Positions 11,434 through 44,663 of a DNA stretch of 64,000 nucleotides are shown here, in pieces; position 1 is the stretch's first letter, and every line of letters begins with the position of its first letter. The position numbers were made by a program, and so were the translations under genes. The stretch is taken from assembly GCA_964017185.1 (NCBI GenBank), contig OZ024877.1:8348006-8412005 (forward strand), given 5' to 3'. The notes under the pieces were generated by a model. It ran no database searches and was not told where the DNA came from. It saw only the letters and a list, made by a program, of their open reading frames with translations. This DNA is from Rugalucina vietnamica (Eukaryota; Mollusca; Bivalvia; Lucinida; Lucinidae).

Positions 11434-12735
11434 TGCACTGAAAATCATTTATGGTCCAAAGAGTTCTGGAGCCACCACATTGCTCAGTGCAGATGGAAGC
11501 ACTCTTCTCACAGATAAAGAGGCTATCTTGAAAAGATGTGCAAAACATTTCGATAGTGTGCTAAATCGACCATCAAGAATCAATGAGGATGCAATCTTCA
11601 GACTTCCACAGATAGAGTGCAATGTTCTGTTATATGAATTTCCAACCGTCATGGAAACAAGAAAAGCAGCTCAACAAGTGTCATCTGGCAAAGCTCCAGG
11701 TACAGATGCAATTCCTGCATAGGTCTATAAGGCCGGGGGGCTACCCATGGCAGAGAAACTGACAGAGTTGTTTCACTGTATGTGGAGGTAGAGGGCTATC
11801 CCACAAGAATTTAAGGATGCATCCATAATGCACATATACAAGCGGAAAGTAAATTCACAAGTCCTATCCATTGATGGGTAGATACTGTCAAAAATTCTTT
11901 TGAACCGGCTGAATGTTCATCTTGAAAGGGACTTATCCAAGAAGGTCAATGTGGATTCAGAAAAGACAGGGGGACATGATCTTCACAGCAAGACAGCTTC
12001 AGGAGAAATGCCAGAGCAAAATATATAGATCTATACACCGCGTTTGTCGACCTCACCAAAGCGTTTGACACAGTTAGTCGTGGTGGACTCTGGAAAATCA
12101 TGACCAAGTTTGGCTGTCCACCCAGATTCATAGCAATGGTGAGACAATTTCATGATGGCATGCAGGCACGTGTGCAAAATGATGGAGAGTTCTCTGAACC
12201 CTTTAAGGTAACAAATGAGGTCAAACAGGGCTGTGTTATGGCACCAACACTGTTCAGCATGATGTTTTCTGTCATGCTCATGGATGCTTTTCAGAACAGT
12301 GATACTGATCTTCCAATCAGGTACAGTTTTGATGGTAATATATTCAACCTTAGAAGGTTGCAAGCAAAAACTAAGGTGTAGACTAATGTGCTAGATGAGC
12401 TCCTCTATGCAGATGATATGGATAAGAATGCAAGCTCAGAGGCAAAAATGCAAAGAGCCATGGATCAAGTCTCACAGTCATGTGATAACTATGATCTCTC
12501 AATCAGCACAAAAAGATAGAGGTTGTACACCAATCAGCACCTGGAAAACCGTACAATGAACCAACCATCACTGTGAATGGACAAAAACTGAAAGTTGTTG
12601 ACAAATTCACCTACCTGGGAAGCACTCTTTCCAGAGCAGTGCACATTAATGATGAGGTCATTGCCAGAATTGCAAAGGCCAGTGTGGCATTTGGAAGACT
12701 CCGTGCAAATGTCTCTTAGCGAAATGGAATCAAAA
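11434..12735 (+). pseudogene. Decayed LINE reverse transcriptase, 5' part
   Basis: Non-LTR retrotransposon polymerase with many stops and small indels. Recognisable blocks in order are GKAPGTDAIPA (RT start), FKDASIMHIYK, a mutated QCGFRKDRG block, AFVDLTKAFDTVSR, NEVKQGCVMAPTLFSMMF, LLYADDMD (catalytic YADD) and FTYLGSTLSRAVHINDEV. The reading breaks at GIKR, where a Naiad is inserted in reverse (12736-14047), and resumes at 14048. This domain order and the C-terminal ARIGLVSHQR segment are common in invertebrate LINEs; I cannot name the clade with certainty. Confidence 0.8.
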
Positions 12736-14047
12736 GGTACAAGTAGGCAAAGATCGGGAAAAGGCGCAATCAGAAAAAGATTCCCACTCCAAAAACCGAG
12801 GTGGGAAAAAAACAAACTAACAGTCAGGTACTTATACCATGAAACATATCGTAAGCCGAATGAGCAGCTATTTTCCCAATAGGTGGCCACTCAGTTACCT
12901 TAACTTAACTAAAACTATGAAAACACACATAAGGCGCCAACAGCACAAACAAAATTTAAACACCAAGACATAAAACAAAAAGAACCACCACATAGGTATC
13001 GACTTGGAACGATCAGTAACACAAAGTTACTGGCGGGCTTAAACCGGTTTTACAGGTACCTAACCTCACCCTCAGCTTCTGCCGTGGTTCATAACATTTA
13101 GTTAGTTATTCGGTCCTCGTGGTGAACCTCTAACTAGTCAATGAATCATCAAGAACAAACAAATAAACCATGATAAACATTCTGATGAATCAAAAACCAG
13201 GACTCACAGATTGAGTAAGCTGCCCGACGATGGAGATCCCTGGGCGCCGAATAACCTACTAACTCCGGAGCAAAAGAAAAACACCAGTTGGACCCCGGTG
13301 GGCCAAGGAACAGACAAGAAGCTCCGGCCCCAACCAACTAAAATGAATAGCTTTAAGTCGGGGCCATCATAGAGTCTGACGCCCGACCCACCGGTGTGTA
13401 ATTAAAGAAGGCAGCATAGTTATCAACCATGATTGGGTTAAAAACTAAGCATGCAGACTGTCGCATAACATTCAAGTTATAACCTATACGTCTGTAACGT
13501 GTTATGATTTTTCAGAACTGAAAAGAAAAATCATTTATTCCTTTAAGTTTCTTAAATTTGTAAACCAAGTCACCATAAAATTCAGGTTCCGAAAGGCCCT
13601 CACTTAAAAGCGTCTTCCCCTTTGGGAATACAAGTCTTTGATTTAGACCACCGATGTAAATTTTTGAAATTGCAGCAAAAATGTCTGGCTTTCGCGGACA
13701 GTTTTGTAAAAGGTCACTGACGAAGGTTCATTACCCGAAATTGTACAATATGGCCCATCTTCTCGCTTTCAATGCTTTACTGCTTCCAAAGGATCTAACA
13801 ATTATTTTTATTTAACCCAACATTATATTTGGAAATCAATTCATAGTGTCTACGATAAAATTTAGAAAAGGTTTTTCGAAGTTTATGATACCGATAGCCC
13901 TGTTGGAGAAGTTTTGCCGTTAAACATTTATTTCGAGCGTTGAAGTCTGTAACATGATTGCAGACTCTAGCAAACCTAATAAGCTGCGAAATGTATACAC
14001 CATAAGAAGCACGACGAGGAACGTCACCATCCAAAAAAGGAAAATTA
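12736..14047 (-). mobile_element. 5'-truncated NAI inserted in a LINE
   Basis: Reverse-strand Naiad: 3' end GGTACAAGTAGGC at 12736, complete 3' UTR with the conserved hairpin at 13014-13032, then the C-terminal RT portion (KLLQQGYRYHKLRKTFSK). It ends 5' at [13 protein letters not shown] near 14047. A GGC repeat (13617-13797) splits the coding part and further stops are present. The host LINE reading resumes almost at once on the far side, so little target was lost. Confidence 0.85.
13617..13797. mobile_element. GGC repeat copy nested in the Naiad
   Basis: About 180 bp interrupting Naiad coding homology. It shares CCGAAATTG-CAATATGGCCCAT and GCTTCCAAAGGAT with copies at 17880-18090, 28470-28620 and 45715-45905. 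The exact interruption shows it is mobile. No tRNA-like boxes seen. Confidence 0.6.
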
Positions 14048-28768: not shown

Positions 28769-29839
28769 ATGGTATGGACAAAATGGATGTTTGCCGCCAT
28801 TTTTACTGTTGCTTTTGGATATGCAAGGTATGTGAGTTTAGAACATCTTCTAAGCCTGTCAGGATATCAAAAGAGTCATACATGTACAACAGAAAAATGT
28901 AGAAAAATATAAAGATAACGAGGTCGTTTTTGTCGTAATATTATATGTCGTAGTAAATAAGTATAATCAAGATTGTTTCAGTTAGTAAAAACATATTTAT
29001 TCTTTAGTTATAAATTCACAATATCATATACAAAGAATACAAGATATACTTAAACCGGTTTTTCAGGACCCTAACATCGTCATCAGCTTCTGCAGTGGCT
29101 CACGACAATTAGTTGGTTGTTCGGTCGTCGTGGTGAATCTCTACCTTTTCAATGAATCATCACGGACAAACACACCATGAGGAATCAAAATCGAGGACTC
29201 CAGATATAATATGCTGTCCGGCAATTAGAGATAACTGAAAATCTGGAGCAAAAGAAAAGTACTAGTTGAATCACGGTGGGTCAAGCAACAGACAAGAAGT
29301 TCCGACTCGAACCAACTAAAATGACTCTAGTTTAAGAGGGTACCATCATAGAATTGGACATTCGACCCACCGGTGTGCTTTTTTAAAAGGAAGCACATTT
29401 ATCAATCGTGCTTGGGTTTTAAAAAAGTTAACATGCATTTCATAATACTGTGCCAATTTTCACTTTTAATCTTAAAATTTATTTCATTGAATCTTATAAG
29501 ATTATTAATCTCAAGTTACAATCTTAAGTGTACCAACTCCTTGTTTTAATAATGACCTCATTCTAACTCAACCATGTGTATTCACAACCCCGCCAATTTT
29601 GAATACAACTGATTAATTATTTAATTTACGATGCTTTTAAATGTTTTAGGCTCACACTCAAATGATTCATATGCTTAGATCGTAAATATTTGTTTTGTAA
29701 TGGATTGAATATGCATGTGTTTTAAGTACGTATGTATGTTTATGAATATATGTTTTATGTATGTTTCATGTTTTAGAGAGGATTGTATGTTAGATAAGTT
29801 CCTGTTTGTACTTAATATGTAATCCTCTCAAAATAAAGA

Positions 29840-39500: not shown

Positions 39501-42500
39501 TTTTATTCTAAATTGTACAGACACACCCTGTTGAAGATTCTTCATGTAGGTGCAGAAAGTCTGGGCATCAACGCTGCACCTGTGCTCCCAGGAGGAGCTG
39601 GATAACAGTTTACTCTCGACTATGTAGCTCGTTACTTTGGATCCCCCATTCTTCTCAGGTTGATCCCATGACAGTTTACAAGACTGGCATGTAACATCGT
39701 AGATCTCAGGTTTTATAGGACTTCCTGGTGGCTCTGAGAACAATAATTATGACGCTGTTTTGTCATATACATGTATAAGAAAACAATTAGGTTTACAGGG
39801 ACATGAATGAAGGGACAAATGCTGTCTGTTAAAATAACTGCCTGACAGGCACGAATATATTTAATGTAAGCGGTAGGTCTAGTGAGTGGAGGAATGATAT
39901 AACAAAGCCAACCACAAGCCACCGAAAGAACAACAGTCCTTTCTACTATGAACAGCAAAATATAGATATTCAATATAACGAATGTATTTTAAATGTTGTT
40001 CTTACCAATTGCTTCTACTTCCCTTGAAACATCTCCCACTTTTCCTTCTCCCTTTTTATTCTCTGCGATTACTCTGAACTGGTACTTTTGGCTGATGATG
40101 AGGTTTGACACGTTAAATGTATTTCCTCTAACAAGTCCATGGTTCAGTCTGCTCCATCCGAAACCACCGAAACGATTTGATTCAACATGGAACCCACGTA
40201 CAGGTGATCCTCCGTCATCATCAGGCTGGCACCATGTTAATACGCAGGACTTGGAATCAATGTGAGAAACTGTTGGTGTGTTAACAACTCCGGGTACATC
40301 TAGGAAAAGATGAGGTACAATGAAAACAGAGCATGTCTCTGTTTAGTTATGCAATTGACCAGTAATCTTTCATAAAACTGCCTCAAAATGAATGGCTACA
40401 TCTGTTACATAATCTTCAGATTAGGTTATCTCCACTCAAATCACCAATTTTACGTAAATATATTAATCCGTTCAAGAGACCTGGAATGTACCCTAGTATT
40501 TCTGAGTGCAATGCCAAGAAGTGCAACTGTTGCAATCATTTATGCTCTAAGACTACTATCACTTCATCTGTGAATGGTAGGACATTTTCAGTGGTTAATG
40601 ATTCTGATTTAGACTGAAAATCAATGGATCTTGTATATGTTCTTACTTGAAATACAAACAATTGTAGGATGCAATATAATGGACAGACTTGTCGAACTTT
40701 GCAAAAACGATTTGGTGAGCACTATCGTAGAATCAGAAAGCCCAAAAATAATGATACCTTTCTGTGCCAGCATTTTAAGCGCACTGGTCATTCTCCCAAT
40801 GATGTTAAATTTAAACCAGTGGAGAAAATCTCATATGATGAAAATTCTTCAGTTAGATTCAAAAACATTAAACAATTTGAAACTGAACTTAAATGGATGA
40901 AATTACTGCAAACACCCTTTCCACTGGGATTTAACGACAACATTTACCATGAAGGCAATATTTCCAAAATGCCCGATTTTGATGTACTTACACTTTCAGA
41001 GTCTCCTTAAACGTAAATCTAGATCTTATGGTCTACGGAAAAAAGGGTAATGACAAACGTAAACTGTGCGCTGCATTGAAATTGAACATTTCCCTTAATG
41101 ATTTAGCTGTTAAACTAAGGATTCACGGTCGACATCCAATGCTGTCTTATCTTATTTCTCTACCTATTGCTGCATTACGTTCCTTGGACACAGAGGCTAA
41201 TAGATTTTACGATAGAAATCATCAATAGTATGACGCTGCACTGTTAACAAGATGTTATACTCAGCATGCTCTTCGTCGATTTATCGATTCCGAATCTAAT
41301 CACATTAGAAGTTTTATTAAAATTCCTTTCATCAATAAAGGAATTGACTTTATCGATTTACCAAGCATATTCCAGGATATATCAGTGATACAGTCTATAC
41401 CTACCTACTTCCAAAATTCAGAACCTCCTATTATTTGTTACAAATATAACAAACCAATCAGAAATACTATTTTTAATTTCAATAAACTTGTTTCTGATCT
41501 TGATATCCATGCTAATACTCCTAAGTCTTGAGATTGTAAAGATTCAAAATATGTTTATCAACCAGCTGGACATATAGTTACTGAAAATTTAAAAATAATT
41601 TCGGATTCTAGAATTCGCAATTTTTTTTCTAAAGGTCCGAACTATAGATTCCCTTCCTACATTAACTTCGACAAATGTAGAGAGGTGATTGCATCTGCAT
41701 TAAATGATTTCGGTAATCGATGGTGTAAACGAGAGGGTGTTGAGGATAATGCTCTTAAAGAATGGAAAAGAATTATCTTCACTACCGTGGATAAACGTAT
41801 TAAATTTTATTCACAAAATACTAATCTTTTACCTCCTAAACCCAAATCGTCATTTAGGCATTTGAAGCAGGGTATCCAAGAATTTCATAGAAAGTATGTC
41901 TTGGTTCCGGCAGATAAAGCCGCTAACAATGTTGTTGTCGTTTGTAGGCTTCACTACGTTAACACCTTAAAACAGGAGCTTGATGGTACCAGGGCTTATC
42001 TGGAGACAGATACTGATGAGGTGTCTGTAGTTAATGCCCACTGTTTGTGTCAATGAAGGCCAAGACAAACTTCCTACGATGTATTGGTTACCTAAGCTTC
42101 ACAAAAGACCATACAAAGCTAGATTTATTGCAAATTCTAGTTCTTGTACTACCACTGAACTTTCTAAATTATTAACTTCCTGTCTTACAGCTATCAAATC
42201 TCATGTTATAAGATACTGTGAGACAGTGAATGAAACTTCAAATAAAAATTTGTTTTGGTCAATTAAAATTCTGGTGAGGTGCTCAGTAAATTGCAGTGTA
42301 GAGGGTTCCGTGCGACAAACTTGTCCACATATGATTTTTCTACTCTGTGTACAACATTACCACATAATCTAATTAAAAACCAACTTCTAAATTTGATAGA
42401 GTAGACCTAGGGCATTAAAAACTATGGTTCACTTTATTTGGCATGTAATGACAGAAAGGCTTTTTTTCACTTCCTCTGACCAAAGTCGGTATACACTTTG

Positions 42501-44663
42501 GTCATGTCAGAATGTGTGCGACGCCTTATCCTATCTCCTTGATAATATTTATATTAGATTTGGGACCAAGTTATACAGACAAATTGTTGGAATTCCGATG
42601 GGTACAAATTGCGCACCTCTCGTAGCTGATTTATTTTTATACTGCTACGAAAGAGACTTCATGGATTCTCTTAACCATGATAATCAAGCTGATGTTATCG
42701 AGGCTTTTAATTCCACATCTAGGTACCTCGATGACCTTTTGAACATTGACAACCCTTATTTTGAAGGTATGGTCAATCAAATTTATCCATCTGAACTTCA
42801 GTTGAACAAAGCCAATATCTCAGATACCGAAGCCCCCTTTTTAGATCTACATCTTTCTGTTGCAAATGGATTTGTTTCTTCTAAAATTTATGATAAGCGC
42901 GATGACTTTGATTTTGATATAGTAAATTTTCCATTTTTGGATGGTGACGTTCCTCGTCGTGCTTCTTATGGTGTATACATTTCGCAACTTATTAGGTTTG
43001 CGAGAGTCTGCAATCATGTTACAGACTTCAACGCTCGAAATAAATGTTTAACGGCAAAACTTCTCCAACAGGGCTATCGGTATCATAAACTTCGAAAAAC
43101 CTTTTCTAAATTTTATCGTAGACACTATGAATTGATTTCCAAATATAATGTTGGGTTAAAGACGCTTTTAAGTGAGGGCCTTTTGGAACCTGAATTTTAT
43201 GGTGACTTGGTTTACAAATTTAAGAAACTTAAAGGAATAAACGATTTTTCTTTTCAGTTCAGAAAAATCATAACACGTTACAGACGTATAGGTTATAACT
43301 TGAATGTTATGCGACAGTCTGCATGCTTAGTTTTTAACCCAATCATGGTTGATAACTATGCTGCCTTCTTTAATTGCACGCCGGTGGGTCGGGCGTCAGA
43401 CTCTATGATGGCCCCGATTTAAAGCTATTCATTTTAGTTGGTTGGGGCCGGAGCTTCTTGTCTGTTGCTTGACCCACCGGGGTCCAACTGGTGTTTTTCT
43501 TTTGCTCCGGAGTTAGTAGGTTATTCGACGCCCAGGGATCTCCATCGTCGGGCAGCTTACTCAGTCTGTGAGTCCTGGGTTTTGATTCATCAGGATGTTT
43601 ATCATGATTTATTTGTTTGTTCTTGATGATTCATTGACTAGTTAGAGATTCACCACAAGGACCAAATAACTAACTAAATGTTATGAACCACTGCAGAAGC
43701 TGAGGGTGAGGTTAGGTACCTGTAAAACCGGTTTAAGCCCGCCAGTAACTTTGTGTTACTGATCGTTCCAAGTCGATACTTCTGTAGTGGTTCTGTAAAA
43801 TGTTTTGTGCTGTTGGCGCCTTATGTATGTTTTCATATTTTTAGTTAAGTTAAGGTAACTGAGTGGCCACCTATTGGGAAAATAGCTGCTCATTCGGCTT
43901 ACGATATGTTTCATGGTATAAAGTACCTGATTGATAGTTTGGTTTTTTCCCACTTCGGTTTTTGGAGTGGGAATCTTTTTTGATTGCGCCTTTTCCTGAT
44001 CTTTGCCTACTTGTACCTTTCTTTACACTATCTATTCAAACTTATTAATAATTGTTTTGATAAATGAAAGGTTCTTACCAATTGTCTCTATAACATCTGA
44101 TATCGGCCCTGGTGGGCTCTCTCCAAGCTTGTTCACGGCAATCACCCGGAAACGATATCCATCATCACTCTTCAGTCGCCTGGTACAAAACCGCGTGCCT
44201 ATGACAAACCCCTCTGTTAATCGTGACCATCCTGTCGCATCAGAGTGATATTCAATATGATAGCCAATAATTGCTGTACCGCCATCGAAGTAAGGCGGTT
44301 TCCAAGATATTTCGCAGCAGACACGGCTACTTGTAACTGCACATGGTGCTGAAGGTGGGTCTGGTATGCCTAAAATATACGCACCAATGTTATCTATTGG
44401 TGTTGCCGGTTGTATATGCTGTACCTAAAGTAAGACATTACCGCATCCCCAACTTATGTGCCTTTATTTCTCATATAAAATATGGAATACAACTTAAAAT
44501 AAGGAATTATTCTTTCAAGCTATAACAGCAAATATTTAGACTTACTCTTTTAAGTTAAGTGTCCTCAGTGTTGAGTGGCGTCTCGTCTTGGATAATTCTG
44601 TGTTCTAAGAGGAATACAATCGAAGAAAAATTCAATAAACCCTCATGGTCCTAAATTGAAAAC

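Follow-up and report, generated by a model that had tools for sequence, protein, structure and literature searches.

Three in-frame UGA codons at cysteine-type sites and a predicted SECIS spanning the stop codon of a Naiad retroelement

Introduction

Three TGA codons stand in frame in a retroelement copy within the window analyzed here, the whole 64-kb stretch OZ024877.1:8348006-8412005 of a 1.09-Gb animal genome, and they raise the question of whether they are scars of decay or codons that were once read as selenocysteine (Sec). Selenoprotein-encoding Naiads have reportedly been found in clams and spiders; these elements are said to carry an N-terminal GIY-YIG endonuclease, a CxC linker, a reverse transcriptase (RT), and several Sec codons, to occur in tandem copies, and to have no canonical hammerhead ribozyme. 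The literature listings searched contained no account of selenoprotein Naiads. The original prediction was that the window copy descends from such an element, and this descent is well supported in our analysis by the conservation of the TGAs, the cysteines of relatives, and the presence of a predicted SECIS element. Judged from sequence, the window copy is dead and very probably descends from a Naiad, active until recently, whose three UGAs would be read as Sec.

The window copy and its family

The copy occupies positions 40409 to 44020 of the plus strand and aligns over up to 3.6 kb with copies L031 to L048 of the same Penelope-like element (PLE), at about 96% identity; the longest of these extend upstream of position 40409, so that the window copy is 5'-truncated. 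Two minus-strand fibronectin-type exons flank it, and it is oriented antisense to both; one of these open reading frames (39989 to 40342) was recognized by eye, and the other (44032 to 44424) matches titin and twitchin chains in the PDB. Compared with intact L031, the window copy carries 70 substitutions, 33 deleted bases, and 3 inserted bases over codons 88 to 1102, which bears out the frameshifts reported for it earlier. It also has two TAG codons that had gone unmentioned, at codon 360 (41226 to 41228, plus strand) and codon 761, both lesions of its own that occur in none of the other 37 aligned rows. With its indels, substitutions, and two TAG codons, the window copy is therefore dead. The first two TGAs are the only ones in the window frame from 40366 to 41010, while the frame from 41229 to 42095 holds the third and an extra TGA at 42054 to 42056. 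That extra codon falls outside the two blocks in which no further in-frame TGA had been noted, and the earlier observation stands.

The intact frame is complete in L031 and L032 and comprises 1101 codons in L031, the first Met being codon 25. Most copies are 99.4 to 99.7% identical to L031, and a few are lower (e.g., L034 at 98.3% and L047 at 98.0%). The long copies all end at one precise 3' position and have different flanks, which, together with their high identity, indicates recent movement; these sequences thus point to a Naiad family that has been mobile recently. A tandem arrangement, in which a 3' end is joined to a 5' end, was seen in L031 and L034, and the SECIS of a neighboring copy was found upstream in 6 of the 13 loci scanned. 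No hammerhead ribozyme reached the Rfam cut-off in the 64-kb window or in ten long loci.

Domains of the frame

In the single frame of L031 and L032, a GIY-YIG endonuclease lies N-terminal to an RT recognized by eye. The RT part was located in the window at 42040 to 43416 (plus strand) by tblastn with residues 640 to 1100 of the L031 frame, and the motifs FSTLYTTLP, GIPMGTNCAPLVADLF, and YLDD were read by eye in L031. Pfam RT models gave no match in the window or in the L031 frame, no RT match was obtained from the PDB, and no relative of the Naiad RT was found among viral contigs. A CxC linker is typical and diagnostic of Naiads, and it is present between endonuclease and RT as U-D-C (codons 461 to 463). 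On these features, an N-terminal GIY-YIG endonuclease, a CxC linker, and a putative RT in one frame, the element is a Naiad.

The endonuclease part of the window frame (40411 to 41004, plus strand) scored 22.5 bits with Pfam GIY-YIG, just below the cut-off of 22.6, and the endonuclease domain of L031 scored 27.3 bits; GIY-YIG was not listed in a Pfam scan of the full 1100-aa L031 frame. A structural model of the L031 endonuclease (overall mean pLDDT, 63.0; block means, 66 to 88 over residues 31 to 150) had the catalytic domain of I-TevI as its best Foldseek match (1ln0; probability, 1.00; E = 5.8e-3; target TM, 0.69), with no Foldseek match at E <= 0.001.

Three UGA codons at cysteine-type sites

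All three TGAs lie on the plus strand exactly where they had originally been placed. UGA 1 (codon 157 in L031; 40615 to 40617) stands at a conserved Cys just 5' of the endonuclease's GIY strand, UGA 2 (codon 168; 40648 to 40650) at the first Cys of a presumed CCHH zinc motif, and UGA 3 (codon 461; 41529 to 41531) at the first position of the CxC linker. For the two endonuclease sites, a genome search with Pfam GIY-YIG listed 150 matches, from which 16 were fetched across score groups and 14 retained (L071 to L081 and L084 to L086); L082, a decayed copy in which Phe replaces the first Cys, and L083, by eye an SLX1-like host gene, were left out. The UGA 1 and UGA 2 columns are both Cys in 14 of 14 of these sampled endonucleases, all of Penelope type and from the same genome; several of them are close kin and so represent fewer families. 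The claim that these UGAs occupy expected Cys positions is upheld. In the endonuclease alignment (A2), with UGA written as Cys, there are 10 invariant columns, those of UGA 1 and UGA 2 included. The L031 endonuclease has U-x4-C and H-x5-H, which we take to be its CCHH motif; the UGA 2 column, C64, H83, and H100 are invariant in the alignment.

The other Penelope-type endonucleases thus resemble that of the Naiad in having GIY-YIG with C...C..C and H residues but differ in having Cys at both sites and no UGA, where the Naiad has UGA. In three of them the domain order also differs: the frames of L074, L075, and L077 stop at most 8 codons past the endonuclease piece, so that the endonuclease is C-terminal there, whereas it is N-terminal in the Naiad. 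Downstream of L077 and L074, respectively, L088 and L089 hold C2H2-like zinc fingers in another frame after the end of the endonuclease frame. Another element forms a head-to-tail array at G000:C15:425918-437860, where a Penelope-type endonuclease match recurs four times at a spacing of 3893 bases, the frames being 484 to 964 codons long.

The first genome search listed 45 matching places, and 30 loci were cut out, the window's own among them; TGA was present at all three sites in 29 of 29 other loci. In a set of 38 nonduplicate copies projected on the L031 frame (L002 to L020, L031 to L048, and the window copy), TGA was found in every covering copy, that is, in 33 of 33 at codon 157, 33 of 33 at codon 168 (five copies giving no coverage of these two codons), and 38 of 38 at codon 461. 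No other copy examined had TGT or TGC at these sites, in keeping with the conservation that the original prediction had proposed to look for. A stop codon is also found at the UGA 3 site in an older inverted fragment in L047.

Had the three TGAs arisen as random nonsense mutations in a dead copy, the visible damage of the window copy, with its two TAGs, 33 deleted bases, and 3 inserted bases, would be in keeping, but the TGAs recur in every other examined covering copy and were therefore already present in the ancestor of these copies, while the TAGs are absent from the 37 other rows. It had been argued that Cys codons become TGA only by transversion, which is correct, and that random decay would seldom take this path; indeed, about 5% of one-step new stops from L031 codons are Cys to TGA, and the chance of random decay producing three such changes out of three is about 1.5e-4 (2.1e-4 unweighted). 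We rejected decay as the source of the TGAs, an origin that is hardly credible. Any recent expansion from one master would leave UGA in all young copies, so selection on UGA is not proved by the number of copies alone.

A predicted SECIS across the stop codon

The Rfam model SECIS_1 (RF00031) matches positions 43397 to 43464 of the plus strand with 37.3 bits (cut-off, 35; E = 4.3e-5), and its position explains why no convincing SECIS had been found by eye in the 3' untranslated region (UTR). This predicted SECIS straddles the stop codon of the Naiad frame: the UAA (43420 to 43422, plus strand) lies within the apical loop, and the first two of the apical A's are those of this codon. The core consists of AUGA at 43405 to 43408, the apical AAA at 43421 to 43423, and GGA at 43450 to 43452. 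The 5' arm codes for the last residues of the frame (...SDSMMAP[T/I]). With a 15-bp basal helix, one strand of which is also coding, the structure spans 43381 to 43480 of the plus strand, its 5' half being coding up to the stop codon. The fold of 43381 to 43481 has a free energy of -58.7 kcal/mol (z = -8.83), equaled by 0 of 200 shuffles. Because the SECIS starts 5' of the stop codon, it escapes any scan confined to the 3' UTR, and it would have escaped one of the range once suggested for this purpose (43423 to 44018). Its position warns that elements of this sort go unseen when only annotated 3' UTRs are scanned.

The core is largely retained among 23 aligned rows, with AUGA kept in 18 and the apical AAA, the stop codon UAA, and GGA in 20 each. 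Only two Rfam hits reached the cut-off in the 64 kb, both of them SECIS_1 inside Naiad pieces; the second (13311 to 13378, minus strand; 39.0 bits) lies in a Naiad 3' fragment at 12725 to 13616 on the minus strand. Nine of ten long loci have a SECIS above the cut-off (ten hits), L033 being the only one below it, and no other Rfam family reached the cut-off in these loci. Among 20 old 3' fragments, the SECIS scored above the cut-off in 5 and at E <= 1 in 14, with no hit in 6. A SECIS is thus found here and in most of the other copies examined, which leaves the predicted Sec reading standing.

Host selenocysteine machinery

Two tRNA-Sec loci above the Rfam cut-off were found in the genome, and ARAGORN read both as tRNA-Sec with the anticodon TCA. 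Every one of the 14 control prokaryotes gave a match to the Rfam tRNA-Sec model as well, 5 of them above the cut-off, so that the ARAGORN reading carries the point. The eEFSec-specific domain gave one match (E = 1.2e-37) and was found in 0 of 14 control genomes. The tRNA-Sec search returned, in addition, 22 weaker matches (40 to 46 bits), several of them grouped on C2 near 27.8 to 27.9 Mb.

These findings bear on whether UGA might be read as Cys or Trp in a variant code. Such a code would suit the placement of UGA where Cys is expected, but the frame has 29 ordinary TGT/TGC codons elsewhere, which speak against a general reassignment of UGA and led us to reject it; the host tRNA-Sec(TCA) and eEFSec, together with the SECIS, argue for Sec instead. 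We give a variant code next to no chance.

Integrity of the frame and selection beyond the UGAs

Of the 38 copies, 23 show neither indels nor further stops in the aligned part of the frame. These are L031 and L032 over all codons, 13 copies to codon 1018, where the cut-out locus ends, seven 5'-truncated copies (L044 ending at codon 734), and L003, the match of which ends at codon 727, inside its locus. The other 15 copies, the window copy included, have indels or a further stop.

Variants present in at least two copies were taken as older changes of the active lineage and singletons as mostly postinsertion changes. There are 27 shared variants, all past codon 216, of which 18 are silent and 9 replacing; 22 of them (14 silent and 8 replacing) lie beyond UGA 3. 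The codons give a neutral expectation of 3.06 replacing changes per silent change with transitions weighted twofold (binomial p = 4.9e-6), a p value that overstates selection since the ratio among singletons, at 1.71 (130 replacing and 76 silent), is itself below the computed neutral value. Compared directly, shared variants and singletons differ over all codons (Fisher p = 0.0058) and also when only singletons in codons after UGA 1 are counted (109 replacing and 73 silent; Fisher p = 0.012), though most shared variants split L034, L047, and the window copy from the rest, so that the lineages are not independent. In codons 1 to 157, which few older copies cover, there are no shared variants, and 21 singletons are replacing and 3 silent. 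The shared variants being mostly silent, the frame 3' of UGA 1 and UGA 2 was under purifying selection, which says that the frame 3' of the UGAs was translated in the active element.

Decoding of the UGAs as Sec would not be needed if the family were nonautonomous, with the UGAs terminating and mobilization provided by the proteins of another Naiad, or if low ordinary readthrough without Sec sufficed. Many copies are 5'-truncated and the genome has other PLE families with open frames, as might be expected of such a family, but 23 of 38 copies show no break in the aligned part of the frame past the UGAs, shared variants in that frame are mostly silent, a SECIS above the cut-off sits at the end of the frame, and all three UGAs occupy Cys-type sites, of which sites 1 and 2 were compared with relatives. 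No Naiad with Cys at the UGA sites, the donor that nonautonomy calls for, was found among the best 40 candidates scored in each genome search, but one could exist. We regard nonautonomy as improbable, and decoding of the UGAs as Sec is the preferred reading.

Proposed decoding and relation to known systems

If the UGAs are so decoded, two Sec residues would lie in the endonuclease, one at the Cys before the GIY strand and one at the first Cys of the zinc motif, and the third would lie in the CxC linker. The single SECIS, at the frame's 3' end, would serve all three UGAs, with Sec supplied by the host tRNA-Sec and eEFSec. Most likely, the full-length endonuclease-RT would be made only when all three UGAs are decoded as Sec, and short N-terminal fragments would be made otherwise. 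Zinc may be liganded by Sec both in the endonuclease and in a CxC knuckle. We infer that Sec is inserted, that it binds metal, and that it offers a gain over Cys.

Because the stop codon lies inside the SECIS loop, every terminating ribosome must open the SECIS. We suggest tentatively that this is a natural SECIS, in a eukaryote, that shares sequence with its own reading frame and is melted by the terminating ribosome, so that translation and UGA recoding compete; our guess is that this opening would act as a brake on recoding, and with it on the output of full-length endonuclease-RT.

The family agrees with what is reported of clam and spider Naiads in its N-terminal endonuclease, CxC linker, RT, several UGAs, and tandem copies, and in showing no hammerhead at the cut-off. 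The kind of element is, by those reports, already known, and the position of the SECIS is the fresh and unusual detail; a SECIS in this place may be new or may also occur in published Naiads. Were the host neither a clam nor a spider, the family might also represent a further, independent origin of selenoprotein retroelements. SELENOP-type host selenoproteins with multiple Sec residues likewise have several UGAs served by SECIS signals at the 3' end, but SELENOP is a host gene with its SECIS in the 3' UTR, whereas the Naiad is a mobile element with one SECIS straddling the stop codon. Retroelements dependent on the host selenium machinery would tie their transposition to selenium supply. With near-identical intact copies, three UGAs, and one strong predicted SECIS, the use of Sec in the endonuclease of a mobile element is directly testable here.

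Older pieces of the family

At 43730 to 43793, in the 3' UTR of the Naiad, a twister-P1-like match is weak (20.2 bits; cut-off, 67.2) and probably due to chance. The inverted fragment in L047 was considered as a distinct Naiad subfamily, which was dropped, since its best other matches (the best 40 of 5979 candidates being scored) are 90% identical and scattered and include no closer group; we read the fragment, from its sequence, as an older member of this family. A decayed 3' fragment at 29049 to 29437 gave 40 matches, itself included, and 20 short pieces from the other 39 apparently belong to the same family. Besides the element itself, the window contains 16 more BLAST pieces of this Naiad family, counted as those longer than 100 bases with less than 98.5% identity to L031; they span 5163 to 57102 on both strands, and 13 of them are 3'-end pieces.
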